From positions 288,427 to 352,426 of the forward strand of contig PUQB01000247.1 in NCBI GenBank assembly GCA_003024785.1: DNA of 64,000 nt. The letters are read 5' to 3'. Source of the DNA: Selaginella tamariscina. Its lineage: Eukaryota; Streptophyta; Lycopodiopsida; Selaginellales; Selaginellaceae. Position 1 is the stretch's first letter, and the number at the start of each line of letters is the position of its first letter. The notes under the pieces were generated by a model. It saw only the letters and a program-made list of their open reading frames with translations. It made no database searches and had not been told where the DNA came from. Below, in pieces: positions 1,141 through 58,160 of this stretch. The position numbers were made by a program, and so were the translations under genes.

Positions 1141-1334
1141 TGTGTATTGTAGATATACAAGTTACAGATTCAATTAATTATATGAAAATGTGGTGTAGAT
1201 GTATATTATATAAACATAAACCACAGGGTCATCAACATATGTATATTGTGTATATAGATACACACACATAAATTCGTGTATGTATGTATATACATACATG
1301 TTTCTTTTATACAAATGGATGTTTATATAAAAAG

Positions 1335-2687: not shown

Positions 2688-2709
2688 GTGAGTATTTCAT
2701 ATACGAACA

Positions 2710-9566: not shown

Positions 9567-9575
9567 AAATAATAA

Positions 9576-9611
9576 GGGTCTCGGCGAAAAGGAGGCTCCG
9601 GCTCAGGAGGC
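9576..9611 (+). repeat. Left terminal inverted repeat, copy A
   Basis: The 36 bases starting GGGTCTCGGCGAAAAGGAGG align without gaps to the inverted right end at 17677-17712 (24 identities). The same end is found at 28671 (B, inverted), 43173 (C) and 58353 (D, inverted). Confidence 0.88.
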
Positions 9612-9772
9612 TTCATATTATTCTAGTATATTCGCGGATATTCTAGGGTTATTCTAGCATATTCTAGAATATTCTCAAGAATATTCTAGAATATATAAGT
9701 TTTTTTAATATGTTGACTGGCTTAATATATGCCGACTGGCTTAATAAAGCATTATCCTAAACCCTAAACCAT
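9612..9772. promoter_or_regulatory. Left subterminal region with GAA/TTC palindromes and TGCCGACTG motif
   Basis: Between the inverted repeat and the transposase stop codon lie runs of TTCTAG and GAATATTC. At 9660-9697 the order GAAtaTTC/TTCtaGAA alternates with 2-base gaps, which is the spacing of plant heat-shock elements (nGAAnnTTCn). At 9713-9745 GTTGACTGGCTTAATATATGCCGACTGGCTTAA gives two related copies of the TGCCGACTG core also found in the central array. These could be transposase-binding sites, heat-responsive sites, or both. Confidence 0.6.
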
Positions 9773-12700
9773 TTATCCTTGTAGCACCGGTGGGTCATGA
9801 ACTCTGCTGCAATTCACCAGCAAACGGTGGACCTCCATCTCACTGAGCGATCGCCTTTGTAGAAAATATGTGACGTCCGGGTTCAAGCCAAGCACACGGC
9901 TGTAGACGAAGTACATGTGTACACATGGGCTCCAACTTTTGCTCTTCTGAAATGTAGAACAACTGCATGAAGGATAAGTATTAATAGTCACCTTTGCAGA
10001 GTCATTTCCTGCCGACACAACGAAAGCCTCCTTCCGTCCTCTAGCTGTCACTTCAACATTTCGCACACAACCTAAAAACGTCTTGGCCTTGCGGAAATTC
10101 TTCTCTTGTTCCTTAGACATTTTTGTTGGAGTCCGGACCATACGTCCTTCGAAAGGTGGAATTGTTGTAGATCCAGCTCCACGTGGTGGCGATGGTGTTT
10201 TGTCCTTCTGACCCTCATCTACTCTTCCTGCCATCCCCTGTAAACCTTCCAGAACAAAGCCTGCATCCTGTAGTTCTCTGACCTCCTCACTTGTCAGCTT
10301 CGTTTCCTTGAGCACAGGCCAAACCGTTGGTGGTGTTGGAATTCGTGACCGAAGAATTTTGCCGTTTGGCCGCGTGAAACACCCTGAATCTTTTGGGCAG
10401 AACCACATCATCTGTTGTACATACTCCTCATTCCCCAAGGCATCAATGTACATTCGTTTTCCATAGAATCCTGGTGCTGGCACTCTGCTTGGATAACCGA
10501 TTGGTTTTCCACACAGAGCAGTTCCTTCCTGATTCATCCCCAAACACTTAACCTTACTGGATGCTCCGATTCGTCTGATGGCCCACTCTGTTTGAGCAAT
10601 CTCTCTCTCCGAAACCTCTTCGAACCTTAACCTCTTTCTCCTGTTGTTTTGGACCACCCGCTCTGTGTACTCTACATCATGTCTGTGTGAACGTCGAGCA
10701 TCAGACTGTTCTGTTCCTGTGACTGTTCTCCTAACAGTTTGCACTCGAACGTTAGTGGTACTCGTGAACTCCGGGCTGGTCAAGTGTTCCTCGCCTTCCA
10801 CCAGATTGATAATTGTTGATGGAGATACACTTTTCCCCTCAGAGAGTTTGCGTTGCACTCGTTTCAACAGAGTTTCCTTCGAAGGCCCTGACCCTGTATA
10901 CCTCCCTTCTATTGCCGCTTTCACCTTCGCACTCTGCATAACTGCATCGGTGAGGTCTAACATTGTCGCCTCCAGCAGTGGTACTCTTTTGGCCAATCTT
11001 GCTCTTCTTGCTCTGCGTGAATCACTTCAGCATTGTTTGTAGTTGGAACGCTCGCAGTCCTTCTTCTGTCATGTCTCCCAGTTCCGCCATGGAGATGTGG
11101 TCCTCATGCCTGATCCACCAAGACAGCCATGTCTTCAAAGCTCGAATGTTTGACGCTCGTCCTTCCCAAAAAGACTCGAGAATTGCCAGTTGTTCTTTCT
11201 TAGATTGTTCATTCAGTGCTGCAGGCCAGGCACGAGCAAGCTTCATGTGTTCTTCGCGATGTTCTTCTGCGATCCATTTCTTTGTCACCTGACGCACGGA
11301 TTGCATAAAGTGAAACAGACAACTTCTTTCCCTCCCTTTCATCTTTGCTCCGTTGTTGAATACTTGGCGCAAGGCTATCCATATCGCTCCAGCCTCATCC
11401 GACATGAAACCAGCAAAGTTGACATTCTCCAAACCCTGCTTCTTACAAACCTCTAGCATTGTGTTCAAGAACTTCAGCACTGCAACATTATCTTCGCGGC
11501 ACATATCTGCGTAAGCTATAGTCACCATGGATCTGACACTGCAAGAGAGCGTTAGATAACGAAGATTAGAAAGTGTTATGAAGAGTTTTACAACTTACAA
11601 TGGGTCATAAAGGTGTATTCCAATTGTCGCCCAGTCTGGTATGCGGTGCGTGTGGTCCAGAACAACCCATTGATCATGAAGGTCTCCTCCACTTTGACAC
11701 CTTCTGATGTACTCAACTCCTGAACCCGGTCCCTCAACTGTCATTTTGAAGATCAGAGGCTGCTCCTCAGCACCATGCAGTTCCATCCCTGGAACATGTA
11801 TGACGTGAATGAAAGGTATTGGCAACTTTGTCTTCAGCTCCAGAAGACCCTCGTAACCCTCTCTAAAGTGTGTCTCCTTCTGTCTTGATTGTGTAATCCA
11901 GTCCCGAGTCCTAAAGAAAAGGTCACGTCAGTGTTTAGAGATCTAAAGAAAAATACCTTCGATGGTTTGTTAGAGGTTCAAGTTTTGAGAGTAAACCAGT
12001 GTACGAGACTTCTCCTTCTTCCTTGAAAAGTTCTTCAAAGATGAGCTCACGCGCGGCTTGAAACTCAATCACTCGTTGATTGGTTCGCGGACTGCTCTTT
12101 ACCACGTTGCTGACACTAGATCTGGCTCGCTGAACGTTTGAAGCTGACACTGAGGGGCTGACTGGATGCTGATGAACACCTCTGTGAATGAACAACCTTG
12201 TAAAAGAAATGTCGTCTGGCAGAATGTAGTACACATAAGCCGGACAAGTGTGCACCAGCAATGGCTCCTCTCCACAATGCTTACATTTCATGCCTATTAC
12301 TTTGCCTGTCTCAGTTGTCTTTGCCTTCTCCACAGCACCCTTGAAGTGACATTCATTTGCTTTCTTCTCAAAAGCCAAGTAGGGGCAGGTAGGATTGATG
12401 CATTTGAGATGTCCGACACATGAACTTCGACTGACTCGCGCCGGAACATGCCAGTGTGTTGTGCTCGGGTGTGTCCAATGGTAGCAGCCATCCTTGCGAT
12501 TCATCCCCGAGTACTTCTCTGTGCTTTCTTCTTAGGGGGAAGTTCGTAAATGACATTTCCATTGTATATCTGCGGTAGTTCAGAGACTCGTTTAACTTCA
12601 GACGAACCAATGAGATCCTTCCCTATCCTACATTTGTCTGCTCTTAGAAGACACACCAGCATGGATTCCTCACGCTCCTCTGTCCGCAACCTGAACAACG

Positions 12701-12935
12701 GGCCCTTTGCCGGGCACAATGTGTAAAAGACAAACTGGTTTGATGCATTGCCTTCTGGTAACAACTCCACATCTTCTCCAGAACTCGCAGAAACTGACAT
12801 CAATTGAACCACATGTATACTGAACCAACAAGGAATGTTGAAAGCAATGTGAAGATCATGTTCAAACACAAAAGCATTTCCATCTTCATCGACTGGGAAA
12901 TCTTTGTCAATGCCTTCATAGGTAACTCTGGCCAT
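9773..12935 (-). CDS. Mutator-like transposase with SWIM zinc finger (copy A)
   Basis: Cut-and-paste transposase, about 1018 residues in three exons: 12935-11957, 11910-11600 and 11538-9773. Introns are 46 and 61 bases with GT-AG ends. In order: an N-terminal region; a cysteine/histidine zinc-binding region with CVGHLKC...CPYLAF, CKHC and a HRGVHQH tail (about 12430-12160); the catalytic core with VLDHTHRIPDW (first acid, about 11641-11666), SDEAGA (second acid, about 11390-11410) and C..H in CLFHF (about 11310); and a SWIM finger CSCSTFQ...CVHMYF (about 9967-9913). The start ATG at 12933-12935 is shared by all copies. Relative to B and D, one-base shifts occur near 12530 and 11030, so this copy is nearly but not fully open; these may be sequence errors. 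It diverges from the accessory gene. Confidence 0.88.
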
Positions 12936-13480
12936 GACAACGCAAGGAGAAAGCTCGGTGGTTTAGGAAAGCAAAGCAAAAGATTAAACACACTTTCCCT
13001 CGCCAAAAAAAATTACAATCGTTATAATAAACGTGAATACACGTTTGTATATAATTAATTCTACGCTGCCCAGCTCACAGTGTTCTTAATGATGTCCTCT
13101 CTAGTATCACCGATTTAATTTAATTTCTACCTTTTATGATTTGAAATATCTTCACATTTACCAATTATTCACATATTTTAAAATAAACCCTAAATATTAA
13201 TGTCACATTTATTCCGTAGGGTTCACTGTTTTCATTGCGGCTAGGGTTTTTTGGTAGATAGGGTTTACTGTTTCCACTTGCGGCTAGGGTTCTTTCAATC
13301 TCAGATCTGTTTCCACTGCGGCAGATCCGAGGGTTTTTTCAATCTCAGATCTCAGAGTTACGGTTTCCACTGCGGCGCCATCCATTTCGACTCGATTCGT
13401 GCAGCGCCCAAGTATATCAATGGAGATTTCTGTGCCGATTTAGATTGTCGGCACCATCCTGCTCAGCCGGCGGCCACAAG
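12936..13480. promoter_or_regulatory. Bidirectional promoter region, transposase side
   Basis: This stretch lies between the transposase start and the first mini-exon of the accessory leader. It is AT-rich at first, then from about 13220 holds repeated phrases GCGGCTAGGGTTTTTT, TTTCCACTGCGGC and AATCTCAGATCT. The phrase order resembles a plant 5' untranslated leader (CTAGGGTTT), so transcription of the accessory gene probably begins about here. No clear TATA box is evident. Confidence 0.5.
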
Positions 13481-14253
13481 GTATGTGTAATTTCTGTATT
13501 TTATGATTTGCGGCTCAAAGTATTTCTTTTTCAGAGATATAGGGTCTTCCCATTTGTGCCGACTGAGAGCGACGGCACCATCCTGGTTCAGTCGGCAAAC
13601 ACAAGGTATTCGATTTATTTATTTTTTTCCTTGCGGCTCAAGTATCCGTGTCACAATGTTCTTTTTTCAGAGAATGGGTCTTTCCATTTGTGCCGACTGA
13701 GAGTGACGGCACCATCCTGGTTCAGTCGGCAAACACAAGGTATTTTCGATTTGTTTTTTTTTGCTTTCTGGCTCAAGTATTCGTATCACAATGTTTTTTT
13801 TTCAGAGTTAATGGTCTTCCATTTGTGCCGACTGAGAGTGACGGCACCATCCTTTCAGTCGGCAGCCACAAGGTATTTTGATTTGTTTATATTTTGCTTT
13901 GCGGCTCAAGTATCCGTATCACAATGTTTTTTTTTCAGAGTTAATGTGTCTTCCCATTTGTGCCGACTGAGAGTGACGGCACCATCCTTCTTCAGTCGGC
14001 AGCCACAAGGTATTTTGAATTAGTTTATTTTTTTCTTTGCGTCTCAAGTATTTCTTTTAAACCAGTTAATGGGTCTTCCCATTTGTGCCGTCTGAGAGGG
14101 ACGGCACCATCCTATCTCAGTCGGCACCATTATCTCTTCAGTGCCGTCTGAAAGGGTCGGCACAAACTATCTCAGTCGGCAGGATTTGTTCTTCTACATC
14201 TCTCTGCCGACTGAGAGGGTCGGCACCATCTAGCTTGAGTCGGCAGCCACAAG
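13441..14253 (+). repeat. Tandem mini exon-intron array in the accessory-gene leader
   Basis: A unit of about 130 bases is repeated. Each has a splice acceptor (polyT-CAG), an exon-like core of about 70 bases (AGTTAATGGGTCTTCC...GTGCCGACTGAGAG.GACGGCACCATCC...CAGTCGGCAGCCACAAG) and a donor GTATTT. Exon-like cores are 13535-13605, 13671-13739, 13806-13872, 13939-14009 and a longer one 14066-14253, with an upstream partial ending 13480. A last intron 14254-14320 joins to the coding exon. Each core holds GTGCCG...CGGCAC and TGCCGACTGA...TCAGTCGGCA inverted pairs. It is conserved in C and, inverted, in B and D. It could act as a spliced leader, a folded RNA or a binding-site array for the element's proteins. 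Confidence 0.85.
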
Positions 14254-14330
14254 GTTAGTCATCTTTGTTTGTTTTTTTATTTTGTCTCCTAATCAATTGA
14301 CTTGTGTGTTTGCTTTCCAGAGTTTACAAA

Positions 14331-17300
14331 ATGGTGAGAGCTTCAAAACGTCTACTAGAGACTGCGCCTGATGAAGAGCCACGGGAAGAGAAGAGGATAT
14401 CGAAGCAGAAGCGAGGCAAGAGAGGAGAACCATCTAATGTAGCAAAGGAGGATCCTCCAGTGACTCAGTCTGGAGTAGTACCAGTTGAGCAAGAACAGCC
14501 TCCACCAACCATCACAGATTTCCCGGAGAGCTCGTCGCAGTTGCCTCCTTCATCCGCTGAGGTTGCAGTCCTGAACGAGCAAGTGCAGATGACAGAGGCA
14601 GTTGAAGCTAGCGAGGACGACTTGGAGGAGGCAGTCAGCAAAAAGAGAGGCCGCGGGAAAGCTGATTCAAAAGGCAAGAAGGCGAAGAGCGATAAGGAGC
14701 CGAAGGAGTTATACAGCATACCGGCGAGCCTGCATTTGGAGAGCTCAGCAAACCTGCTCGACAAAATTACTATCAAGGGACTTGGTGATCCTCCTGATGT
14801 GCCCATCTGTAGAATACATTCGAACGAGGTGGTTCGACGAGTGAACCCAGGGGACTTGGACAGGCTGGTGTCATCGTTGAAGAAGGCTGGTTATCTACGC
14901 AACACGGCCTTGTTCATTCTGTCCATCGGAGATCGACTCACTGCTGAGGAGCTATCGGAGCTGTCGAAGGACACGATTCAGTACGAGCAGCACCGGTCTT
15001 TCGAGCAAGCTCTTACTCAGCCGGAGTACAAACAGTGGGCTTCAAGGCTCTCAAACAGGAAGTTTAGCTGCTGGGACGGGAACCATAGGCTACAGGCTTT
15101 GCAGAAGCTGTACCGAGAGGATGCAGAGGACAACCAGCGATGGGCTATTGCGTTCGATCGAGTTTCATCTCCACGGAGAACCTCGACATTCTTCAACTGG
15201 TTTCGATGTTCCAATCGATTAACATGTGAGTATTTTCTTTTCTTTTTGTTAAGAGTTTAGACTTACAGTTTCGTTGAACAGATCTTCAGCAACATCTGTG
15301 GAAACAACGCTACCACATATTCTCCTCGCTGTAAAGGCGGTCTGCACTAGTACAGAAGGAACTCAGAAAATCCTCGAGTCACTCACGGAGGTTGATCGTC
15401 TTGAGGTGCGGAAGTGGAAGGAGAGTTCAGCAGGAAAGACGGCTTGGCATCCTCTTCCGAACTGATCTGCGCAAAGATCCTTTTCAAGGTAACCTCCGAT
15501 TTAATTTATAGGAAAGAATTTTTTAACTTATTCTATGTGCAGAACGAGATCGACGATGATCTCGACAGAGCAGTCACCAGTGCTAAGGGCAATTCACAGG
15601 TTGAGGTGAACCTGAAGCAGCTAGTGTACAAGAAGCATGACAAGCGTATGCACAAGTTCCTCTCCATCATAGACCCAGACTTGGGGAGGAGTGGTTCCAG
15701 AAGGTGACAAACATCTCTCATAAGCAGTGTCGCTGGATGGGCATTGAGAAGCTGTATGCGATGTCAAAGGCGAAGATTCCAAACATGCTGCGACTCCGAT
15801 ACTGAACAAGCTCACCCGTCTCGAATCCAAGGCAGAACAACAGACACTTGGGCTACCGGCATGCAGGACAAAGAGTGGATCAAGTGGTTCACCTTGGACT
15901 TATATTGGAAGGCTGTGCGAGGAAGCCATTCAGATCCTTAAGGGGTTGCGAGAGGATGGTGAAGAAGTTGGAACGGATGTCGACTTCATGAGCTGGTTTG
16001 ACGAGATGAAACTCGGAGCAAGTGCCTGGTCTTTCAGCCCTTCCATGACTGCATTCGGTTCAATTATTCGATGGAGCCGAATGAGTTTCTGGAGCGTGAG
16101 GAATCTGCGCGTCGGATGATATGGAGGTAAGCTTTCAATCCAGCATTGCTACTGTCTGACTTTGTGTTACAGGTTCATACTGGCGAAGCAAATGACACCG
16201 TCCCATACGATGAAGCTGTGGACAGATCATACAAGCGAGCCTCACATGTGGTCGAAGAGCAGAGGAGCTCTAACACCGTTCGAACGGGAGCATGTTCCAT
16301 TCTGGCTCGACTGTCCGTCGCAACAGCCACCAGCTTGGGAGAGCTCACTGGCAAATGATCTACCAGCGATTGTTTGGGAGCCGGAAGAAGTAGAGGCTAT
16401 CAAGAAGAGCAAGATGAAGAAGACGGTGCGGAAGACAACTACACCTGCAAAGGGATCGGGAGCGGGACCAAGCTCTTCTACAGCACCTCCGCCGGCATTC
16501 GACTTTACAATCAATGAGGTGCAGCCACTTGTAGCTAGTTTGGACATCAAGGACGACCTGATGACCTTCATCCCGACCCTGGCTGCATCCCGTGGATCCT
16601 ACGACCTAGCTGTGTGCGACATGGAGGAGATGAGCAGGTCTTTCTTCGAGCCGGGTGCTTCCCAGACAGAGGTGTACACCAAGCTCCGACAACAGGTTGA
16701 CAGACTACATACGGTTGAGTCACAAACGGTGTTCCAGGAAGTGGTAGGTGAATACGGCTTCAACCTCATCATCCTCGACTTGCCCAATGAGCTTGTATAT
16801 GGAGGTGCTAGCATCAACAAGGACATTGTGCAGCTAGATCCGGTGAAGTTTGAGGAGGCCTTGCAGTTCAGTGGAATGCACTTGGCAGCGAGTGGTTTCA
16901 TGGTCGTCTTCGCGAGTTCTCCTTCTGTTTCGGCGGTGATTCAGGCGGCTGCAGTAATCAACTTGGAGGTTGCAGGGACTTACAGCGTCTACCGTGCACG
17001 AGGCTGGGGATACCGTGACAAAATTAAGGTAAGCTAGCTATTCAAGTTCAAGTTTAACTTGGTCTATGTGGCAGGATAACTTGTTAGTTCTCTTGGTGCT
17101 GCAAAGCTCTGAGAAGAAGTCGAAGAGGCCAAACCCTCTGGCGTTGACACGATCCTCGTCGACACCGCCGACCGTTATCAGGAGGCTTGGTAAGGAAGTA
17201 CTTTGCTTTTTTATCCTAATGGAAGTTTGTGCAGGATGATGATTCAACCGAAGAGTGTTCGACTCATGCAGCTTTTGATCGAGCGTCTCAGTAGACCTGG

Positions 17301-17532
17301 CGACCTAGTCTGGGATATTGGTTCCGGAACCGGGTCATCGTTGTTAGCTGCCGTCGAGCTCGGAAGGAATATTATAGGAACCGAGAAGAGTTTCAAACTC
17401 TCTAGGTTGGCAACAAACAAGCTCGCAGAGAACATTAGACCAGAAGAATTACCTACTCAAACACCTCCACGTCCAAGCGTAACTGGTGGTTCGAGAACTG
17501 CAGCTTTACTTAAGATGAAGAAGAAACTTTAG
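14331..17532 (+). CDS. ParB-like domain fused to beta-class DNA amino-methyltransferase domain (copy A)
   Basis: Accessory protein of about 980 residues. Coding exons are 14331-15225, 15282-15488, 15543-16126, 16173-17028, 17075-17189 and 17235-17532. Residues about 1-140 are basic and low-complexity with nuclear-signal-like KKRGRGK. Residues about 150-270 resemble ParB/sulfiredoxin-fold domains: DLDRLVSSLKKAGYL and WDGNHRLQAL (15072-15089). A long helical middle follows. The C-terminal third fits the N4/N6 DNA methyltransferase family in beta order: GFNLIILDLPNELVYGG at the motif IV position (16760-16800), then GFMVVFASSP, then GDLVWDIGSGTGSSL (17307-17345) for motif I and IIGTEKS for motif II. 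The usual DPPY/SPPY is DLPN here. This copy has single-base shifts near 15150 and elsewhere relative to C. The ATG follows acceptor TTTCCAG at 14320. Confidence 0.85.
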
Positions 17533-17676
17533 CTAATGTATATTGAGTAATAAATTAAGCTAATATAAAAAAAAAATAAGATAAAATACAACAGTTTTAA
17601 TAGAATTCTTTTTTGCCGACTGAGGCCAATACTGCCGACCAGAAAGAATATTCTATGAAATAATATTCGAGCCCAG
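17533..17676. promoter_or_regulatory. 3' end of accessory gene and right subterminal motifs
   Basis: A likely polyadenylation signal (AATAAA) lies about 20 bases after the stop codon. At 17614-17643 come TGCCGACTGAGG and CTGCCGACC, the same core as the central array, then GAATATTC-type palindromes to about 17672. In C the corresponding run (49791-49829) is longer and fits the alternating GAA/TTC heat-shock spacing better. Confidence 0.6.
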
Positions 17677-17712
17677 GCCTCCTGGCCCCAAGCCTCCAAA
17701 ATGGCGGCACTC
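17677..17712 (-). repeat. Right terminal inverted repeat, copy A
   Basis: Ends ...CCAAAATGGCGGCACTC next to the target duplication AAATAATAA. Read inward it starts GAGTGCCGCCATTTTGGAGG. Confidence 0.88.
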
Positions 17713-17849
17713 AAATAATAACATTAGTTTCTTTATTTAATAACATGGACAGATATTTCTCAGTAGCCAAAGCCAAACGGGTGAAAGCATTTAACAAGGT
17801 TGCTCACCCAATATGTTCTTCACAAGTAATAGCCCGTTGTGTGTGTGCT

Positions 17850-19081: not shown

Positions 19082-19275
19082 TAGTTTTATGAGTGCCGCC
19101 ATTTTGGAGGCTTGGGGCCAGGAGGCCTGGGCTCGAATATTCTAGAATATTTTAGAATATTCTTTCTGGTCGGCAGTATTGGCCTCAGTCGGCAAAAAAG
19201 AATTCTAGTAAAACTGTTGTATTTCTATCTTATTCTTTTTTATATTAGCTTAATTTATTACTCAATATACATTAG

Positions 19276-22200
19276 CTAAAGTTTCTTCTTCATCTTAAGT
19301 AAAGCTGCAGTTCTAACCACCGCTACGCTTGGACGTGGAGGTGTTTGAGTAGGTAATTCCTCTGGTCTAATGTTCTCGAGCTTGTTTGTTGCCAACTAGA
19401 GAGTTCAAACTCTTCTCGGTTCCTATAATATTCCTTCGAGCTCGACGGCAGCTAACAACGATGATCCGGTTCCGGAACCAATATCCCAGACTAGGTCGCC
19501 AGGTCTACTGAGACGCTCGATCAAAAGCTGCATGAGTCGAACACTCTTCGGTTGAATCATCATCCTGCACAAACTTCCATTAGGATAAACAAAGCAAAGT
19601 ACTTCCTTACCAAGCCTCCTGAAAACGGTCGGCGGTGTCGACGAGGATCGTGTTCGTCAACGCCAGAGGGTTTGGCCTCTTCGACTTCTTCTCAGAGCTT
19701 TGCAGCACCAAGAGAACTAACAAGTTATCCTGCCACATAGACCAAGTTAAACTTGAACTTGAATAGCTAGCTTACCTTAATTTTGTCACGGTATCCCCAG
19801 CCTCGTGCACGTAGACGCTGTAAGTCCCTGCAACCTCCAAGTTGATTACCGCAGCCGCCTGAATCACCCGAAACAGAAGGAGAACTCGCGAAGACGACCA
19901 TGAAACCACTCGCTGCCAAGTGCATTCCACTGAATGCAAGGCCTCCTCAAACTTCACCGGATCTAGCTGCACAATGTCCTTGTTGATGCTAGCACCTCCA
20001 TATACAAGCTCATTGGGCAAGTCGAGGATGATGAGGTTGAAGCCGTATTCACCTACCACTTCCTGGAACACCGTTTGTGACTCAGCCGTATGTAGTCTGT
20101 CAACCTGTTGTCGGAGCTTGGTGTACACCTCTGTCTGGGAAGCACCCGGCTCGAAGAAAGACCTGCTCATCTCCTCCATATCGCACACAGCCAGGTCGTA
20201 GGATCCACGGGATGCAGCCAGGGTCGGGATGAAGGTCATCAGGTCGTCCTTGATGTCCAAACCAGCTACAAGTGGCTGCACCTCATTGATTGTAAAGTCG
20301 ATTGCCGAGGAGGTGCTGTAGAAGAGCTTGGTCCCGCTCCCGATCCCTTTGCAGGTGTAGTTGTCTTCCGCACCGTCTTCTTCATCTTGCTCTTCTTGAT
20401 AGCCTCTACTTCGTCCGGCTCCCAAACAATCGCTGGTAGATCATTGCCATGCACGTCGAATAGTGAGCTCTCCCAAGCTGGTGGCTGTTGCGACGGACAG
20501 TCGAGCCAGAATGGAACATGCTCCCGTTCGAACGGTGTTAGAGCTCCTCTGCTCTTCGACCACATGTGAGGCTCGCTTGTATGATCTGTCCACAGCTTCA
20601 TCGTCTGAGACGGTGCCATTTTCTTCGCCAGTATGAACCTGTAACACAAAGTCAGACAGTAGCAATGCTGGAATGAAAGCTTACCTCCATATCATCCGAC
20701 GCGCAGACTCCTCACGCTCCAGAAACTCATTCGGCTCCATCGAATAAGTGAACCGTATGCAGTCATGGAAGGGCTGAAAGACCAGGCACTTGCTCCGAGT
20801 TCGCATCTCGTCAAACCAGCTCATGAAGTCGATATCCGTTCCAACTTCTTCACCATCCTCTCGCAACCCCTTAAGGATCTGAATGGCTTCCTCGCGCACA
20901 GCCTTCCAATATAAGTCCAAGGTGATCCACTCTTTGTCCTGCATGCCTGGTAGCCCAAGTGTCTGTTGTTCTGCCTTGGATTCGAGACGGTGAGCTTGTT
21001 CAAGTATCGGAGTCGCAGCATGTTTGAAATCTTCCTTTGACATCGCGTACAGCTTCTCAATGCCCATCCAGCGACACTGCTTATGAGAGATGTTCGTCAC
21101 CTTCTGGAACCACTCCTCCCCCAAGTCTGGGTCTATGATGGAGAGGAACTTGTGCATACGCTTGTCATGCTTCTTGTACACTAGCTGCTTCAGGTTCAGC
21201 TCAAGCGTGGATTGCCCTTAGCACTGGTGACTGCTCTGTCGAGATCATCGTCGATCTCGTTCTGCACATAGAATAAGTTAAAAACTTCTTTCCTATCAAT
21301 CAAATCGGAGGTTACCTTGAAAAGGATCTTTGCGCAGATCAGGTTTGGAAAGGATGCCAAGCCGTCTTTCCTGTTGAACTCTCCTTCCACTTCCGCACCT
21401 CAAGACGATCAACCTCCGTGAGTGACTCGAGGATTTTCTGAGTTCCTTCGGTACTAGTGCAGACCGCCTTTACAGCGAGGAGAATATGTGGTAGCGTTGT
21501 TTCCACAGATGTTGCTGAAGATCTGTTCAATGAAACTGTAAGTCTAGACCCTTAACAAAAAGAAAAGAAAATACTCACATGTTATCGATTGGAACATCGA
21601 AACCAGTTGAAGATTGTCGAGGTTCTCCGTGGAGATGAAACTCGATCGAACGAATAGCCCATCGCTGGTTGTCCTCTGCATCCTCCCGTAGAGCTTCTGC
21701 AAAGCCTGTAGCCTATGGTTCCCGTCCCAGCAGCTGAACTTCCGGTTTGAGAGCCTTGAAGCCCACTGTTTGTACTCCGGCTGAGTAAGAGCTTGCTCGA
21801 AAGACCGGTGCTGCTCGTACTGAATCGTGTCCTTCGACAGCTCCGATAGCTCCTCAGCAGTGAGTCGATCTCCGATGGACAGAATGAACAAGGCCGTGTT
21901 GCGTAGATAACCAGCCTTCTTCAACGATGACACCAGCCTGTCCAAGTCCCCTGGGTTCACTCGTCGAACCACCTCGTTCGAATGCATTCTACAGATGGGC
22001 ACATCAGGAGGATCACCAAGTCCCTTGACAGTAATTTTGTCGAGCAGGTTCGCTGAGCTCTCCAAATGCAGGCTAGCCGGTATGCTGTATAACTCCTTCG
22101 GCTCCTTATCGCTCTTCGCCTTCTTGCCTTTTGGATCAGCTTTCCCGCGGCCTCTCTTTTTGCTGACTGCCTCCTCCAAGTCGTCCTCGCTAGCTTCAAC

Positions 22201-22469
22201 TGCCTCTGTCATCTGCACTTGCTCGTTCAGGACTGCAACCTCAGCGGATGAAGGAGGCAACTGCGACGAGCTCTCCGGGAAATCTGTGATGGTTGATGGA
22301 GGCTGCTCTGCTCAACTGGTACTACTTCAGACTGAGTCACTGGAGGATCCTCCTTTGCTACATTAGATGGTTCTCCTCTCTTGCCTCGCTTGTGCTTCGA
22401 TATCCTCTTCTCTTCCCGTGGCTCTTCATCAGGCGCAGTCTCTAGTAGACGTTTTGAAGCTCTCACCAT
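19276..22469 (-). pseudogene. ParB-like/DNA-methyltransferase accessory gene, copy B
   Basis: Same protein and exon pattern as in A, read on the minus strand from the ATG at 22467-22469 to the stop at 19276-19278. The N-terminal basic region, ParB-like part (RLVSSLKKAGYL, SCWDGNHRLQAL, about 22010-21680), the helical middle, and ILDLPNELVYGG are present. Small frame shifts lie near 22310, 21200, 20430 and in the last exon, where the DIGSG motif frame is disturbed. The DLPN motif is unchanged from A. Whether every shift is real is uncertain because the differences from A are mostly 1-3 base gaps. Confidence 0.82.
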
Positions 22470-23595
22470 TTTGTAAACTCTGGAAAGCAAACACACAAGT
22501 CAATTGATTAGGAGACAAAAAAAAAAAAAAACAAAGATGACTAACCTTGTGGCTGCCGACTCAAGCTAGCTGGTGCCGACCCTCTCAGTCGGCACAGAGA
22601 TGTAGAAGAGCATATCCTGCCGACTGAGACAGGTTGGTGCCGACCCTCTCAGACGGCACTGAAGAGATAATGGTGCCGACTGAGCTAGGATGGTGCCGTC
22701 CCTCTCAGACGGCACAAATGGGAAGACCCATTAACTCTGAAAAAAGAAATACTTGAGCCGCAAAGCAAAAAAAAACAAATTCAAAATACCTTGTGGTTGC
22801 CGACTGAACCAGGATGGTGCCTCTCTCAGTCGGCACAAATGGGAAGACCTTTATCTCTGGGATTCCACACAAATGGGAAGACACATTAACTCTGAAAAAA
22901 AAAACATTGTGATACGGATACTTGAGCCGCAAAGAAAAAAATAAACAAATCGAAAATACCTTGTGGCTGCCGACTGAACCAGGATGGTGCCGTCCTCTCA
23001 GTCGGCACAAATGGGAAGACCCTTTATCTCTGAAAAATAAATTATTTGAGCCGCAAATCATAAAATACAGAAATTGCACATACCTTGTGGCCGCCGACTG
23101 AGCAACAATCTAAATCAACACAGAAATCTCGATTGATTTACTTGGGCGCACACAATCGACTCGAAATGGATGGTGCCGCTCCTCTCAAGCCCCTTGGAGA
23201 GATTTCAGAACTCAGATCTGAGATTGAAAAAACCCTAGCCGCAGTGGAAACAGTAAACCCTATCTACCAAAAAACCCTAGCCAATGAAAGTGAACCCTAC
23301 GGAATAAATGTGACATTAAGGATGTGACATTAATATTTAGGGTTAATATTAAAATATGTGAATAATTGGTAAAGGTGAAGATATTTCAAATCATAAAAGG
23401 TAGTAATTAAATTAAATCGGTGATACTAGAGAGGACAGCATTAAGAACACTGTGAGCTGGGCAGCGTAGAATTAATTATATACAAAAGTGTATTCACGTT
23501 TATTATCAACGATTATAATTTTTTTTGGCGAACGAGAGTGTGTTTAATCTTTTGCTTTGCTTTCCTAAACCACCGAGCTTTCTCCTTGCGTTGTC
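22470..23595. repeat. Central leader array and bidirectional region, copy B
   Basis: Inverted counterpart of 12936-14330. It holds fewer mini exon-intron units: cores of TCAGTCGGCAC...GGTGCCGAC are visible at about 22550-22735, 22785-22885 and 22960-23020. The reduction relative to A shows that unit number varies between copies. Confidence 0.75.
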
Positions 23596-26500
23596 ATGGC
23601 CAGAGTTACCTATGAAGGCATTGACAAAGATTTCCCAGTCGATGAAGATGGAAATGCTTTTGTGTTTGAACATGATCTTCACTTTGCTTTCAACATTCCT
23701 TGTTGGTTCAGTATACATGTGGTTCAATTGATGTCAGTTTCTGCGAGTTCTGAGAAGATGTGGAGTTGTTACCAGAAGGCAATGCATCAAACCAGTTTGT
23801 CTTTTACACATTGTGCCCGGCAAAGGGCCCGTTGTTCAGGTTGCGGACAAAGGAGCGTGAGGAATCCATGCTGGTGTGTCTTCTAAGAGCAGACAAATGT
23901 AGGATAGGGAAGGATCTCATTGGTTCGTCTGAAGTTAAACGAGTCTCTGAACTACCGCAGATATACAATGGAAATGTCATTTACGAACTTCCCCAAAGAA
24001 AGAAAGCACAAGAAGTACTTGGGGATGAATCGCAAGGATGGCTGCTACCATTGGACACACCCGAGCACAACACACTGGCATGTTCCGGCGAGTCAGTCGA
24101 AGTTCATGTGTCGGACATCTCAAATGCATCAATCCTACCTGCCCCTACTTGGCTTTTGAGAAGAAAGCAAATGAATGTCACTTCAAGGGTGCTGTGGAGA
24201 AGGCAAAGACAACTGAGACAGGCAAAGTAATAGGCATGAAATGTAAGCATTGTGGAGAGGAGCCATTGCTAGTGCACACTTGTCCGGCTTATGTGTACTA
24301 CATTCTGCAGACGACATTTCTTTTACAAGGTTGTTCATTCACAGAGGTGTTCATCAGCATCCAGTCAGCCCCTCAGTGTCAGCTTCAAACGTTCAGCGTG
24401 CCAGATCTAGTGTCAGCAACGTGGTAAAGAGCAGTCCGCGAACCAATCAACGAGTGATTGAGTTTCAAGCTGCGTGTGAGCTCATCTTTGAAGAACTTTT
24501 CAAGGAAGAAGGAGAAGTCTCGTACACTGGTTTACTCTCAAAACTTGAACCTCTTACAAACCATCGAAGGTATTTTTCTTTAGATCTCTACACACTGACG
24601 TGACCTTTCCTTTAGGACTCGGGACTGGATTACACAATCAAGACAGAAGGAGACACACTTTAGAGAGGGTTACGAGGGTCTTCTGGAGCTGAAGACAAAG
24701 TTGCCAATACCTTTCATTCACGTCATACATGTTCCAGGGATGGAACTGCATGGTGCTGAGGAGCAGCCTCTGATCTTCAAAATGACAGTTGAGGGACCGG
24801 GTTCAGAGTTGACTACATCAGAAGGTGTCAAAGTGGAGGGAGACCTTCATGATCAATGGGTTGTTCTGGACCACACGCACCGTATACCAGACTGGGCGAC
24901 AATTGGAATACACCTTTATGACCCATTGTAAGTTGTAGAACTCTTCATAACACTTTCTAATCTTTGTTATCTAATGCTCTCTTACAGTGTCAGATCCATG
25001 GTGACTATAGCTTACGCAGATATGTGCCCGAAGATAATGTTGCAGTGCTGAAGTTCTTGAACACAATGCTAGAGGTTTGTAAGAAACAGGGTTTGGAGAA
25101 TGTCAACTTTGCTTGTTTTCATGTCGGATGAGGCTGGAGCGATATGGATAGCCTTGCGCCAAGTATTCAACAACGGAGAAAAGATGAAAGGGAGGGAAAG
25201 AAGCTTCTGTTTCACTTTATGCAATCCGTGCGTCAGGTGACAAAGAAATGGATGCAGAAGAACATCGCGAAGAACACATGTCATAGTTTTTACTATGACT
25301 CCTCTTTACTTTGGACGTTGACTGTTGTTACCTACTGTACTATATTGACAAGCCCTAGATGTAGTGAGGAACAGCCCCGCTTAGTGCACTTAGGTGTTTA
25401 GGGGTAGTTCGGCCGGCTGTCCTTAGATATCTCGAGAAACTCTAAGCGAAGGTAGCACTTACCTTCTAAAAAACTCTTACCCTTGTTTTCCATGTCCCGA
25501 TTGGATTAATGGCTAGTTCTGGTGAGTTTGGCATGTCGGATATGCTTAGAAATACCCCAGGTTTGACAGGTTAGGGTTTAGGGGTTGATGGATAACTCAC
25601 CAAGTATGTTTTCTCTGGAATGAGATTTCAATGCTAGCCCACTTATGTAAACAGGAAAAAGGGGTTGGGGCCTCTGTCACATAAATAAGGTAGTATATAG
25701 GAGTGAGGGTTCTGGGTTCATGACTGAGCTCGTTACTCTTCTCCCGGTGCAAGCTCTAGCGGTGTCGTCAAGGCACAACCCTCTGTTGTGCCGCCCTAAC
25801 TTCCAGATGCCAAGGGTACGTCCCACTTTCGGGGTAGCTTACCCTTAACGTTGGCGAATCCATGCCTGGGAGGTCTTGTCGGAATGCACGTTCCAAGAGG
25901 CAGAGGTTGAGGCTTGTCCAGCCTCCTCCTCCACGTCAAGCTAGGTGTAGCACTCACAGCCAAGCAAGGCACATCCCGTGTACTAATTCCTGAGGGTTCA
26001 TTGAGGGGTTCTAGAGTTGGCATTTAGGAGCCACGTTTGTGGTACTTGGTGCAACTCTTGAATCTAAGGGCTATGGCATGATAGCCCACATCGGGGAAGG
26101 CAGTGTCACATGGAGATGTGACACTGGGCTAAATGTCACATGGTACAACGCCTGAGACACGCCCTTTGGGGTTGTGTCATGGGTTTGTCGCCAAGGGGTT
26201 GGATACTCTAGCCAATAGGCATGCTTGTGTTTGCACTAGGGTGCTAGCCTTGGGCATCTGCTCAACGGAGGTTAGGTCTCGTAACTAGGTGTGCTTTGGC
26301 ACACTTGGCTAGGGGAGTGTTCTCCTTGGAATCCAGAGGTTGAACAACCTAAGCTCATTAGCAGAAGCCCTTTCATGAGGCACTTGCAAGGTCATGTGCT
26401 TAGGGTTATCCCAAACCTAGCCTTAGGGAGTTTGCTTAGCAGGACACTCGTGTTCGCCTACGGTGCACACTCGTGTCCTCATTAAGTACTAGCTCTAGGT

Positions 26501-28474
26501 CTAGGGTATAACTTGGCCACTCAAACCCTTAGGGGTTAGTCGTGGTTCAGGGTACCCTTGTCGCCCTAAAGGGTTATACTTCCGGATGAGGGTGCTTCCT
26601 CAAGGGGTAAGTGATGATGCCTTAGCTCTGTCTAGGGGTATGTGTGGAACACATGTCTCCTTAATGGGGGTTAGGGCATGAGCCTGTCTAGGTCTTCTAG
26701 GGCAAGACCCTAAGTCAACTAGGGTTATCCCTCAAGGGTTTTGGGGGCAGACACTCTAGGGAGACTTAGGCTAAACCCTAAATCAACTAGGGTTATCCCT
26801 CAAGGGTTTTGGGGGTAGACACTCTTGGGAGACTTAGGCTAAACCCTAAGTCTCCTATCCACTTGGGCATTAGAGTCTAACCCTAGGGGTCGTTGGGGTT
26901 GTTTTGGGAAACTTAGCGTTGCTCACACAGGGTGATGACGCCAAATGGCCACCTGGTAGCCACGTGTCACCACGTGTTGGCCCTTTGCGTTAAAACTTTG
27001 ACAACACATGAAGCTTGCTCGTGCCTGGCCTACAACACTGAATGAACAATCTAAAAAAGAACAACTAGCAGTTCTTGAGTCTTTTTGGGAAGGATGAGCA
27101 TCAAACATTTGTGCTTTGAAGACATGGTTGTCTTGGTGGATCAGGCATGAGGACCACATCTCCATGGCGGAACTGGGAGACATGACAGAAGAAGGACTCA
27201 CGAGCGTTCCAACTATAAACAATGCTGAAGTGATTCATGCAAGAGCAAGAAGAGCAAGATTGGCCAAAAGAGTACCACTACTGGAGGCGACAATGTTAGA
27301 CCTCACCGATGCAGTTATGCAGAGTGTGAAGGTGAAAGCGGCAATAGAAGGGAGGTATACATGGTCAGGGCCTTCGAAGGAAACTCTGTTGAAACAAGTG
27401 CAACGCAAACTCTCTGAGGGGAAAAGTGTATCTCCATCAACAATTATCAATCTGGTGGAAGGCAAGGAACACTTGACCAGCCCGGAGTTCACGAGTACCA
27501 CTAACGTTCGAGTGCAAACTGTTAGGAGAACAGTCACAGGAACAAAACAGTCTGATGCTTGACGTTCACACATACATGATGTAGAGTACACAGAGCGGGT
27601 GGTCCAAAACAACAGGAGAAAGAGGTTAAGGTTCGAAGAGGTTTTGGAGAGAGATCAAACAGAGTGGGCCATCAGACGAATTGGAGCATCTAGTAAGGTT
27701 AAGTGTTTGGGATGAATCAGGAAGGAACTGCTCTGTGTGGAAAACCAATCGGTTATCCAAGCAGAGTGCCAGCACCAGGATTCTATGGAAAACGAATGTA
27801 CATTGATGCCTTGGGGAATGAGGAGTATGTACAATAGATGATGTGGTTCTGCCGAAAAGATTCAGGGTATTTCACGCGGCCAAACGGCAAAATTCTTCAG
27901 TCACGAATTCCAACACCACCAACGGTTTGGCATGTGCTCAAGGAAACGAAGCTGACAAGTGAGGAGGTCAGAGAATTACAGGATGCAGGCTTTGTTCTGG
28001 AAGGTTTACAGGGGACGGCAGGAAGAGTAGATGAGGGTCAGAAGGACAAAACACCATCGCCACCACGTGGAGCTGGATCTACAACAATTCCACCTTTCGA
28101 AGGACGCATGGTCCGGACTCCAAAAAATGTCTAAAGAACAAGAGAAGAATTTCCACAAGGCCAAGACGTTTTTAGGTCGTGTGAGAAATGTTGAAGTGAC
28201 AGTTAGAGGACAAAAGGAGGCTTTCGTTGTGTCGGCAGGAAATAACTCTGCAAAGGTGACTATTAATACTTATCTTACATGCAGTTGTTCTACCTTTCAG
28301 AAGAGCAAAAGTTAGAACCCATTTGTACACATGTACTTCGTCTACAGCCGTGTGCTTGGCTTGAACCCGGACGTCACATATTTTCTACAAAGGCGATCGC
28401 TCAGTGAGATGGAGGTCCACCGTTTGCTGGTGAATTGCAACAGAGTTCATGACCCACCGGTGCTACAAGGATAA
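23596..28474 (+). pseudogene. Mutator-like transposase, copy B, interrupted by a solo LTR
   Basis: Plus-strand version of the A transposase, starting ATGGCCAGAGTTACC and ending at TAA 28472-28474. The cysteine region, WVVLDHTHRIPDW (about 24860-24890), the same two short introns (near 24570 and 24930) and the SWIM part (CSCSTFQ near 28280) are recognisable. The coding region is split at 25279-27003 by an LTR. Stops and shifts elsewhere (for example a TAG near 27835 and another after CSCSTFQKSKS near 28313) show it is not functional as read. Confidence 0.85.
25279..27003 (+). mobile_element. Solo LTR of an LTR retrotransposon, inserted in copy B
   Basis: A 1725-bp sequence begins TGTCATAG and ends TTTGACA (TGTC/GACA inverted ends), flanked by the 5-bp direct repeat ACACA (25274-25278 and 27004-27008). 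Copy D holds the uninterrupted site. A TATA-like TATATAGG near 25694 could be the old promoter. Two tandem units of about 68 bases lie at about 26709-26845. No internal coding region or second LTR is present, so it is a recombined fossil; the superfamily cannot be told. It is younger than the segmental duplication. A piece of the same family lies at 1-160. Confidence 0.85.
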
Positions 28475-28680
28475 ATGGTTTAGGGTTTAGGATAATGCTT
28501 TATTAAGCCAGTCGGCATATATTAAGCCGGTCGGCATATTAAAAAAACTTATATATTCTAGAATATTCTTGGGAATATTCTAGAATATGCTAGAATAAAC
28601 CAGAAATATCCGCGAATATACTAGAATAATATGAAGCCTGCTGAGCCGGAGCCTCCTTTTCGCCAAGACCCTAGTTTTAT

Positions 28681-43163: not shown

Positions 43164-43367
43164 AAATAATAAGGGTCTCGGCGAAAAGGAGGCTCCGGCT
43201 CAGGAGGCTTCATATTATTCTAGTATATTTGCGGATATTCTAGGGTTATTCTAACATATTCTAGAATATTCTCAAGAATATTCTAGAATATAAGTTTTTT
43301 TTAATATGTCGACTGGCTTAATATATGCCGACTGGCTTAATAAGCATTATCCTAAACCCTAAACCAT

Positions 43368-45097
43368 TTATCCTTGTAGCACCGGTGGGTCATGAACTCT
43401 GCTGCAATTCACCAGCAAACGGTGGACCTCCATCTCACTGAGCGATCGCCTTTGTAAAAAATATGTGACGTCCGGGTTCAAGCCAAGCACACGGCTATAG
43501 ACGAAGTACATGTGGACACATGAGCTCCAACTTTTGCTCTTCTGAAATGTAGAACAACTGCATGAAGGATAAATATTAATAGTCACCTTTGCAGAGTCAT
43601 TTCCTGCCGACACAACGAAAGCCTCCTTCCATTCTCTAGCTGTCACTTCAACATTTCGCACACAACCTAAAAACGTCTTGGCCTTGCGGAAATTCTTCTC
43701 TTGTTCCTTAGACATTTTTGTTGGAGTCCGGACCATACGTCCTTCGAAAGGTGGAATTGTTGTAGATCCAGCTCCACGTGGTGGCGATGGTGTTTGTCCT
43801 TCTGACCCTCATCTACTCTTCCTGCCATCCCCTGTAAACCTTCCAGAACAAAGCCTGCATCATGTAGTTCTCTAACCTCCTCACTTGTCAGCTTCGTTTC
43901 CTTGAGCACAGGCCAAACCGTTGGTGGTGTTGGAATTCTCGACCAAAGAATTTTGCCGTTTGGCCACGTGAAACACCCTGAATCTTTTGGGCAGAACCAC
44001 ATCATTTGTTGTACATACTGCTCATTCCCAAGGCATCAATGTACATTCGTTTCCATAGAATCCTGGTGCTGGCACTCTGCTTGGATAACGTCACGTCAGT
44101 GTTTAGAGATCTAAAGAAAAATACCTTCATGGTTTGTTAGAGGTTCAAGTTTTGAGAGTAAACCAATGTACGAGACTTCTCCTTCTTCCTTGAAAAGTTC
44201 TTCAAAGATGAGCTCACGCGCGGCTTGAAACTCAATCACTTGTTGATTGGTTCGCGGATTGCTCTTTACCACGTTGCTGACACTAGATCTGGCTCGCTGA
44301 ACGTTTGAAGCTGACACTGAGGGGCTGACTGGATGCTGATGAACACCTCTGTGAATGAACAACCTTGTAAAAGAAATGTCGTCTGGCAGAATGTAGTACA
44401 CATAAGCGGACAAGTGTGCACCAGCAATGGCTCCTCTCCACAATGCTTACATTTCATGCCTATTACTTTGCCTGTCTCAGTTGTCTTTGCCTTCTCCACA
44501 GCACCCTTGAAATGACATTCATTTGCTTTCTTCTCAAAAGCCAAGTAGGGGCAGGTAGGATTGATGCATTTGAGATGTCTGACACATGAACTTCGACTGA
44601 CTCGCGCCGGAACATGCCAGTGTGTTGTGCTCGGGTGTGTCCAATGGTAGCAGCCATCCTTGCGATTCATCCCCGAGTACTTCTCTGTGCTTTCTGTCTT
44701 AGGGGGAAGTTCGTAAATGACATTTCCATTGTATATCTGTAGTTCAGAGACTCGTTTAACTTCAGACGAACCAATGAGATCCTTCCCTATCCTACATTTG
44801 TCTGCTCTTAGAAGACACACCAGCATGGATTCCTCACGCTCCTCTGTCCGCAACCTGAACAACGGGCCCTTTGCCGGGCACAATGTGTAAAAGACAAACT
44901 GGTTTGATGCATTGCCTTCTGTAACAACTCCACATCTTCTCCAGAACTCGCAAAACTGACATCAATTGAACCACATGTATACTGAACCAACAAGGAATGT
45001 TGAAAGCAATGTGAAGATCATGTTCAAACACAAAAGCATTTCCATCTTCATCGACTGGGAAATCTTTGTCAATGCCTTCATAGGTAACTCTGGCCAT
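43368..45097 (-). pseudogene. Mutator-like transposase, copy C, core deleted
   Basis: The start ATG (45095-45097), N-terminal and cysteine region (CKHC, HRGVHQH) and the SWIM end (CSCSTFQ, CVHMYF) remain, but the internal deletion removes both catalytic acids and the C..H motif. Small shifts add to this. It cannot encode an active transposase; any mobility would need transposase from another copy. Confidence 0.88.
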
Positions 45098-46468
45098 GAC
45101 AACGCAAGGAGAAAGCTCGGTGGTTTAGGAAAGCAAAGCAAAAGATTAAACACACTTTCCCTCGCCAAAAAAAAATTACAATCGTTGATAATAAACGTGA
45201 ATACACGTTTGATATAATTAATTCTACGCTGCCCATCACAGTGTTCTTAATGATGTCCTCTCTAGTATCACCGATTTAATTTAATTTCTACCTTTTATGA
45301 TTTGAAATATCTTCACATTTACCAATTATTCACATATTTTAAAATAAACCCTAAATATTAATGTCACATTTATTCCGTAGGGTTCACTGTTTTCATTGCG
45401 GCTAGGGTTTTTTGGTAGATAGGGTTTACTGTTTCCACTGTGGCTAGGGTTAGATCTGTTTCCACTGCGGCAGATCCCGAGGGTTTTTTCAATCAGATCT
45501 CAGAGTTACGGTTTCCACTACGGCGCCATCCATTTCGACTCGATTCGTGAGTGCCCAAGTATATCAATGGAGATTTCTGTGCCGATTTAGATTGTCGGCA
45601 CCATCCTGCTCAGCCGGCGGCCACAAGGTATGTGTAATTTCTGTATTTTATGATTTGCGGCTCAAAGTATTTCTTTTTCAGAGATAATAGGGTCTTCCCA
45701 TTTGTGCCGACTGAGAGCGACGGCACCATCCTGGTTCAGTCGGCAAACACAAGGTATTCGATTTATTTATTTTTTTCTTGCGGCTCAAGTATCGTCACAA
45801 TGTTTTTTTTCAGAGTTAATGGGTCTTTCCATTTGTGCCGACTGAGAGTGACGGCACCATCCTGGTTCAGTCGGCAGCCACAAGGTATTTTCGATTTGTT
45901 TATTTTTTGCTTTCTGGCTCAAGTATTCGTATCACAATGTTTTTTTTCAGAGTTAATGTGTCTTCCATTTGTGCCGACTGAGAGTGACGGCACCATCCTT
46001 CTTCAGTCGGCAGCCACAAGGTATTTTGATTTGTTTATATTTTGCTTTGCGGCTCAAGTATCCGTATCACAATGTTTTTTTTTCAGAGTTAATGTCTTCC
46101 CATTTGTGCCGACTGAGAGTGACGGCACCATCCTTCTTCAGTCGGCAGCCACAAGGTATTTTGAATTAGTTTTTTTTTTCTTTGCGTCTCAAGTATTTCT
46201 TTTAAACAGTTAATGGGTCTTCCCATTTGTGCCGTCTGAGAGGGACGGCACCATCCTATCTCAGTCGGCACCATTATCTCTTCAGTGCCGTCTGAAAGTC
46301 GGCACAAACTATCTCAGTCGGCAGGATTTGTTCTTCTACATCTCTCTACTGAGAGGGTCGGCACCATCTAGCTTGAGTCGGCAGCCACAAGGTTAGTCAT
46401 CTTTGTTTGTTTTTTTATTTTGTCTCCTAATCAATTGACTTGTGTGTTTGCTTTCCAGAGTTTACAAA
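45098..46468. repeat. Central leader array and bidirectional region, copy C
   Basis: Counterpart of 12936-14330 with the mini exon-intron units conserved: polyT-CAG acceptors, cores with GTGCCGACTGAGAG.GACGGCACC and GGCAGCCACAAG|GTATT donors, from about 45600 to 46393, then the intron ending TTTCCAG before the coding exon. Confidence 0.82.
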
Positions 46469-49400: not shown

Positions 49401-49679
49401 AGTGTTCGACTCATGCAGCTTTTGATCGAGCGTCTCAGTAGACCTGGCGACCTAGTCTGGGATATTGGTTCCGGAACCGGGTCATCATTGTTAGCTGCCG
49501 TCGAGCTCGGAAGGAATATTATAGGAACCGAGAAGAGTTTCGAACTCTCTAGGTTGGCAACAAACAAGCTTGCAGAGAACATTAGACCAGAAGAGTTACC
49601 TACTCAAACACCTCCACGTCCAAGCGTAACTGGTGGTTCGAGAACTGCAGCTTTACTTAAGATGAAGAAGAAACTTTAG
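46469..49679 (+). CDS. ParB-like/DNA-methyltransferase accessory gene, copy C
   Basis: Best view of several segments. The ParB-like part runs open through the exon end as RLVSSLKKAGYL, SCWDGNHRLQAL, then RWAIRVRSSFISTENLDIL, where A has a shift. The middle exon is open for over 200 codons (IDDDLDRAVTSAKG, DLGEEWFQKVTNISHKQCRW, KEWIKWFTLDLYWKAVREEA). The MTase part has ILDLPNELVYGG (about 48910-48945) and DIGSGTGSSLLAAVELG (about 49459-49510), stop at 49677-49679. Breaks relative to A lie near 46617 and 48877, so no copy is open throughout. It diverges from the deleted transposase through the leader array. Confidence 0.85.
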
Positions 49680-49881
49680 CTAATGTATATTGAGTAAAAA
49701 TTAAGCTAATATAAAAAAAATAAGATAGAAATACAACAGTTTTAATAGAATTCTTTTTGCCGACTGAGGCCAATACTGCCGACCAGAAAGAATATTCCAA
49801 AATATTCTAGAATATTCTTGAATATTCGAGCCCAGGCCTCCTGGGCCCCAAGCCTCCAAAATGGCGGCACTCAAATAATAA

Positions 49882-51239: not shown

Positions 51240-51431
51240 TAGTTTTATGAGTGCCGCCATTTGGAGGCTTGGGGCCCAGGAGGCCTGGCCTCGAATATTC
51301 TAGAATATTTTAGAATATTCTTTTTGGTCGCAGTATTGGCCTCAATCGGCAAAAAAGAATTCTAGTAAAACTGTTGTATTTCTATCTTATTCTTTTTTAT
51401 ATTAGCTTAATTTATTACTTAATATCATTAG

Positions 51432-58000: not shown

Positions 58001-58160
58001 GTTGTTCTACCTTTCAGAAGAGCAAAAGTTAGAACCCATTTGTACACATGTACTTCGTCTACAGCCGTGTGCTTGGCTTGAACCCGGACGTCACATATTT
58101 TCTACAAAGGCGATCGCTCAGTGAGATGGAGTTCATGACCCACCGGTGTTACAAGGATAA
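55046..58160 (+). pseudogene. Mutator-like transposase, copy D
   Basis: No LTR and no large deletion: the order N-terminal region, cysteine region, VVLDHTH (about 56310), SDEVGA (about 56570), the MULE core and SWIM end is preserved. Many 1-2 base gaps and some stops (for example near 55750 and 57558) break the frame. It gives the uninterrupted site of the LTR (AAGAACACATGAAGC, about 56720-56735). Confidence 0.85.

Follow-up and report, generated by a model that had tools for sequence, protein, structure and literature searches.

A second gene for a putative ParB-like and methyltransferase-fold protein in a probable Mutator-like transposon family

Accessory proteins which combine a ParB-like domain with a DNA methyltransferase domain have recently been described for DNA transposons of algae. 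Sola1-1_Ec32, an element of 21.5 kb from Ectocarpus, harbours an opposite-strand gene whose product of 1104 amino acids contains ParB-like and N4/N6 DNA methyltransferase domains; the passages of the report dealing with this protein also cite comparable accessory proteins in green and red algal transposons, which are proposed to act as DNA-marking methyltransferases (PMC12477816). The gene described in the present study, to which we refer as the accessory gene, has in common with these, as far as those passages characterise them, its location on the opposite strand, the size of its product of about 1000-1100 amino acids and both domain types, the ParB-like one being weak in our case. It differs from them in the plant-like host and in a degenerate motif IV. 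Furthermore, while the Ectocarpus element belongs to Sola1, the element presented here is probably Mutator-like and creates a 9-bp duplication, and the two proteins are likened by their description in that source and not by their sequence.

A further parallel is provided by VANC, an anti-silencing protein of the VANDAL family of Mutator-like elements, for which a 9-base motif located in tandem repeats of non-coding parts is described in the pertinent passages of PMC5735166. A Mutator-like carrier, an array of a short motif in non-coding parts and, in all likelihood, host DNA methylation of the copies are common to VANDAL, as portrayed there, and the family studied here. The arrays of VANDAL, however, show a uniform orientation whereas ours consist of inverted pairs, and the likeness concerns the array and not the sequence of VANC. 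Second ORFs with a role in integration or DNA binding, namely mudrB of maize and mutB of the yeast element Mutyl, are mentioned in PMC6446971. Sharing with the accessory gene the status of a second ORF in a Mutator-like element, they are likened to it by position and not by domains, and the terms ParB and methyltransferase are absent from that source, passages of which treat second ORFs of Mutator-like elements. The same order of domains, a ParB-like part followed by a beta-class methyltransferase, is present in the ParB-methylase fusions of Wolbachia prophages and bacteria (PF02195 plus PF01555). These fusions, however, comprise about 400 amino acids and feature DPPY in nine of the nine sequences taken for our profile, whereas the protein described here comprises about 990 amino acids, is encoded by a gene with predicted introns and features DLPN instead. 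For a fusion of ParB domain and methylase, the function of a nicking nuclease is reported in the relevant part of PMC5512222.

Within the open-licence literature, as judged from titles and the beginnings of abstracts, we found neither a ParB-methyltransferase pair in a Mutator-like element nor a paper describing, for such a protein, the degenerate motif or an array of a 9-bp motif restricted to non-coding parts. The novelty claimed in a preliminary description of this DNA can accordingly be upheld in part: the domain pair as such is already known from algal transposons (PMC12477816, in the passages mentioned above), its presence in a Mutator-like element is what we did not encounter elsewhere. 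It is probable that the accessory protein is a member of this recently described kind of transposon accessory proteins, placed in a new transposase setting and equipped with a degenerate catalytic motif.

Two-gene elements in the window and across the genome

The window, i.e. the entire stretch of 64,000 nucleotides which was analysed, contains four copies of the element, designated A to D. Element A (9576..17712, forward strand) spans 8137 bp and comprises two divergent genes. Its terminal inverted repeats are short and imperfect, with the ends of the family matching at 14 of 22 positions. The 9-bp target-site duplication AAATAATAA is present both on its left (9567..9575) and on its right side (17713..17721), which bears out the preliminary description of a second, divergent gene within an element bounded by such a duplication. 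Element B (19089..28671, reverse strand, ends approximate) is associated with the target-site duplication ATAAAACTA; an insert of about 1.7 kb at about 25281-27002 splits its transposase. Element C (43173..49872, forward strand, end approximate) constitutes a duplicate of A including the flanks and is devoid of the transposase core, while element D (51247..58353, reverse strand, ends approximate) constitutes a duplicate of B in which about 700 bp are missing from accessory exon 1. Since flanks and target duplication are common to A and C and likewise to B and D (with one mismatch in the left copy of the duplication of D), and since the window contains a duplicated segment of roughly 17-20 kb with two elements in opposite orientation (8001-28700 versus 41593-58354; 97.6-97.8% identical over the longest two of the compared stretches), the four copies represent only two insertions, and four independent copies can be ruled out. 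The earlier statement that all four of them keep the gene had to be abandoned: the loss in D includes the ParB motifs, and in A, B and C the accessory gene is broken by small gaps.

A DNA search of the genome (300.7 Mb, 1391 contigs) with accessory exon 4 revealed at least 40 copies of 98-100% identity; of the 547 first-look candidates 40 were scored, and these 40 are the matches. Fourteen stretches (L027-L040) were fetched for comparison of the family. All 14 can be aligned to the accessory gene as well as to the transposase gene, the latter at least partially; L028, L035 and L037 are incomplete at one end or rearranged. Both ends are readable for 12 copies out of 15, namely A and 11 fetched ones. 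Exact 9-bp duplications, each within flanks of its own, are present in ten of these 12, and in L027 and L034 the 9-bp end duplications do not match. These independent insertions of the two-gene unit strongly support that the accessory gene belongs to the transposon, as had been supposed for the window. In seven of the 14 near-identical copies (L027, L030, L032, L036, L037, L038 and L040) there are more private gap or inserted bases than private substitutions. This points to residual assembly errors, and a part of the frame breaks observed in this genome may not be genuine.

The transposase gene (9773..12935, reverse strand) contains two short predicted introns and is broken in element A; according to the four-copy consensus its product has a length of about 1020 amino acids. 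Motifs of the type D / D / TTNNAE were assigned by eye, and their order is what we take to be that of MULE (Mutator-like elements). At the C-terminus a CxC..CxH cluster is present, for which the Pfam SWIM model yields 15.3 bits versus a cut-off of 19.6. A C-terminal SWIM finger is common, albeit not universal, in MULE. Neither the transposase consensus nor its core is matched by the Pfam MULE models at E values up to 10, and no relative was found upon scanning prokaryote genomes with the transposase as query. The length of the target-site duplication, 9 bp, is within the 8-11 bp range of MULE. We consider the family a two-gene and probably Mutator-like DNA transposon, with the assignment of the transposase being provisional. 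With the splice junctions used here, the transposase frame is not open throughout in any of 12 rows, namely A and 11 fetched copies out of 14; some rows vary in length at a homopolymer, which is an error-prone kind of site.

The accessory gene and its product

The accessory gene (14331..17532, forward strand) consists of six predicted exons which encode about 992 amino acids. Exon 1 (14331..15225), whose frame is broken near its end in A, encodes a basic N-terminus and the ParB-like motifs. It is followed by the predicted exons 2 (15282..15488), 3 (15543..16126; broken in A), 4 (16173..17028) and 5 (17075..17189) and by exon 6 (17235..17532) with the methyltransferase-like segment PKSVRLM...GDLVWDIGSGTGSS, all on the forward strand. 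Start and stop are located as originally claimed, and the spliced consensus protein contains in frame both WDGNHRLQAL and GDLVWDIGSGTGSS, the two stretches by which the protein had been recognised. Their spacing, given as about 550 residues in the preliminary description, amounts to about 670 (residues 247 and 921). All five predicted introns, which we infer to be spliced out, are of the GT-AG type in 16 of 16 rows (the 14 fetched copies, A and C). Among the 14 fetched copies, L028, L033 and L034 possess an accessory ORF which is unbroken over 992 codons.

Compared to the 16-row consensus, L039 carries 19 silent changes versus 20 replacements, and element A 14 silent changes versus 12 replacements. 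With 75% replacement changes expected in the absence of selection (calculated from the codons at a transition weighting of 2:1), the ratio of replacement to silent changes is, by our own arithmetic, in both cases about one third of that under neutrality. As some changes may be common to both, the two comparisons are not fully independent. For C, with 6 changes of either kind, and for L040, with 2 silent and 4 replacement changes, the numbers are too small to judge, and a codon-position test on the four copies in the window does not separate old from recent changes. The excess of silent changes between subfamilies indicates that the accessory protein was under selection. This excess, together with the presence of the gene in 14 of 14 fetched stretches, rules out a host gene captured by chance; a bacterial contaminant is ruled out by the five conserved predicted introns and the plant-like decay described below. 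No relative of the whole protein was found among 7993 scored word-sharing candidates from about 5.8 billion proteins, nor one of residues 145-300 among 479 scored word-sharing candidates from the same number of proteins, nor one of accessory exon 1 in a scan of viral contigs.

About 60 residues at the C-terminus match the part of beta-class DNA methyltransferases which extends from motif X to motif I. The N4/N6 methyltransferase segment put forward in the preliminary description is substantiated by the Pfam check on PF01555, which yields a significant match (E 9.7e-9; 35.9 bits versus a cut-off of 26.7; profile positions 164-219 of 221). The C-terminus also matches PHROG 67 (methyltransferase; E 1.5e-10) and the MboIIA chain (E 4.2e-4) and attains 32-35 bits with our own 12-sequence profile compared to a shuffle maximum of 8.3. 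When phages were searched by tblastn using the methyltransferase part as query, 230 records were matched, with the best rows mostly located around motif I. Our own profile reveals nothing resembling the motif IV half of the fold, and the pattern [DNS][PI]P[YFW] does not occur in the consensus protein. At the position where the catalytic DPPY is expected, and where a motif of this kind had been presumed, the protein displays DLPN instead (16777..16788, forward strand; residue 771), 150 residues upstream of motif I. DLPN is encoded in 16 of 16 rows and, as determined by eye, also in B and D. Because the catalytic motif was not found and DLPN is present in all 16 rows, we designate the C-terminus, from its sequence, as a methyltransferase fold and withhold the name “methyltransferase”. 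The replacement of DPPY by DLPN renders activity doubtful, and catalysis has probably been lost or changed.

The N-terminal part is likely, but not proven, to be ParB-like. This reading is based on two stretches, PICRIHSNEVVRRVNPGDLDRLVSSLKKAGYL and WDGNHRLQAL (15072..15101, forward strand), the latter of which resembles the GxHR box of ParB domains; in the ParB / sulfiredoxin superfamily this box comes after a strand-helix motif in the N-terminal part. Our own ParB profile, built from 22 phage, prophage and bacterial ParB domains and run with filters off, scores the exon-1 slice at 4.5 bits and the whole protein at 1.3 bits. It picks exactly PICRIHSNEVVRRVNPGDLDRLVSSLKKAGYL and subsequently WDGNHRLQAL, the expected order, separated by an insertion; among 5000 shuffles of the exon-1 slice 11 reach 4.5 bits, and the collinear pair is obtained in one. 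In a profile-profile comparison with 111 ParB-methylases, motif I is assigned a probability of 75% and the ParB motif one of 0.4-1.6%, which speaks against a ParB assignment. When the structure of the ParB-like stretch is predicted from its sequence alone, the mean pLDDT is 35; PHROGs and NCBIfam do not recognise this part, and tblastn searches of phages and plasmids with it produced one chance-level match each (E 3 and 8). The ParB domain of the preliminary description thus receives no match from the Pfam ParBc check (PF02195, E up to 10), while the two collinear motifs picked by our own profile lend it weak support. As the PF02195 match was not found, we keep the name at “ParB-like”.

The motif array and possible roles of the accessory protein

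Between the two genes of element A a central array is located (13431..14245), whose units of about 135 bp contain TGCCGACTG/CAGTCGGCA inverted pairs spaced 30-32 bp apart. Eleven TGCCGACTG sites are found between the genes and one near each end (left copy at 9730..9738, right copy at 17614..17622, both on the forward strand), while none is found in coding parts. The same holds true for the wider set of A and the 14 fetched copies: TGCCGACTG is present in the coding parts of none of these 15, and each contains 10-15 central sites forming 4-6 inverted pairs, the number of which varies between copies. At the right end the motif is present once in all 15 copies and at the left end once or twice in 13 of them, the exceptions being L028, whose left end is outside the fetched stretch, and L038, for which we could not locate the stop of the transposase. 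For the overlapping 9-mer GCCGACTGA, the window contains 61 matches with at most one mismatch compared to 6.15 expected, a count which overstates independence because the array units are tandem duplicates. The separate TGCCGACTG sites near both ends are a stronger hint than this count. If the array is aligned unit by unit, the core of the unit appears by eye more uniform than its surroundings in L033 and A. We would also like to mention that acceptor-like (T-run, CAG) and donor-like (AAG|GTAT) sequence delimits each unit of the array; conceivably, the units might undergo splicing as repeated leader exons.

Our preferred, albeit tentative, reading is that the second gene of this family encodes a sequence-specific DNA-binding protein, made up of a ParB-like part and a methyltransferase fold whose catalysis is probably lost or changed, which would counteract silencing or aid transposition. 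The accessory protein would load onto the TGCCGACTG sites of its own element, namely the inverted-pair array in the shared promoter region, with its sites about three helical turns apart, and the single sites near the ends. Once bound, it would either prevent silencing of the element by the host or join the ends for transposition, an action which may be likened to that of VANC on the motif arrays of VANDAL. The transposase, too, could be the binder of the array. A more far-reaching version, to which we give appreciably less credit, assumes that a phage-type ParB-methylase has become, within a Mutator-like element from a plant lineage, a catalytically dead anti-silencing factor which recognises its own element and whose ParB-like clamp at the inverted TGCCGACTG pairs in the promoter and at the ends blocks or reverses cytosine methylation. 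If true, this would amount to a second, independently evolved VANC-like system, derived from a prokaryotic module.

For the algal transposon with the same domain pair, an active methyltransferase has been proposed in print (passages on this protein in PMC12477816), and the accessory protein might likewise deposit an N6-methyladenine or N4-methylcytosine mark which protects the element from silencing or guides the transposase. The beta-class order with its recognisable motif I as well as the excess of silent changes would be in agreement with such activity. The consensus protein, however, lacks a canonical motif IV, with DLPN in 16 of 16 rows, and our own profile detects no motif IV half. We therefore regard an active enzyme as unlikely, and active DNA methylation as less likely than sequence-specific binding to the own array; the idea of the preliminary description that the element actively marks its DNA is, in view of the degenerate catalytic motif, not supported. 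The integration or DNA-binding role ascribed to the second ORFs mudrB and mutB (in the passages of PMC6446971 referred to above) suggests a helper of transposition which acts in end binding or integration and plays no role in silencing. The 9-bp motif indeed occurs near both ends as well, but the majority of its sites is located in the promoter array rather than at the ends, and we consider it improbable that the function of the protein is confined to this task. Finally, the TGCCGACTG array might be bound by the transposase or by host factors, or act as RNA in the form of repeated 5' leader exons with hairpins, with the accessory protein fulfilling an unrelated function such as DNA nicking. 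The former would be in line with the acceptor- and donor-like bounds of the units and the inverted repeats inside them, and for the latter the nicking nuclease with a ParB-methylase architecture sets a precedent (in the part of PMC5512222 concerned with it). The sites at the ends, however, fall outside the repeated leader, which argues against this combination, and we deem it quite improbable.

Irrespective of the exact role of the accessory protein, ParB-methyltransferase proteins of the prokaryote type are encountered repeatedly among eukaryotic DNA transposons which are unrelated to each other, i.e. in Sola1 of a brown alga, in green and red algal elements and in the probable Mutator-like family of this study. 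Their repeated capture by different transposases would suggest a general advantage conferred by a ParB-methyltransferase protein.

Decay of the copies in the window

Out of 119 private substitutions in copy D, 101 are C>T or G>A, with 39 of them in CG, 32 in CHG and 30 in CHH context. The corresponding changes account for 21 of 34 private substitutions in C, 5 of 10 in B and 2 of 11 in A. A deamination-like excess is accordingly strong in D and present in C and not clear in B or A. The excess observed in D fits the decay of cytosine-methylated DNA and is likely a record of methylation by the host, with methylation at CHG being a typical feature of plants. Taken together with the plant-type reductase-like gene mentioned below, this excess makes it likely that the host is plant-like. 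As the family comprises numerous near-identical copies, intact frames, a candidate motif and a decayed copy which has in all likelihood recorded methylation, it offers an opportunity to ask what the advantage of such a protein is. Apart from the elements, the window contains a plant-type trans-2-enoyl-CoA reductase-like gene, the exons of which were located by eye at about 1300-3500.
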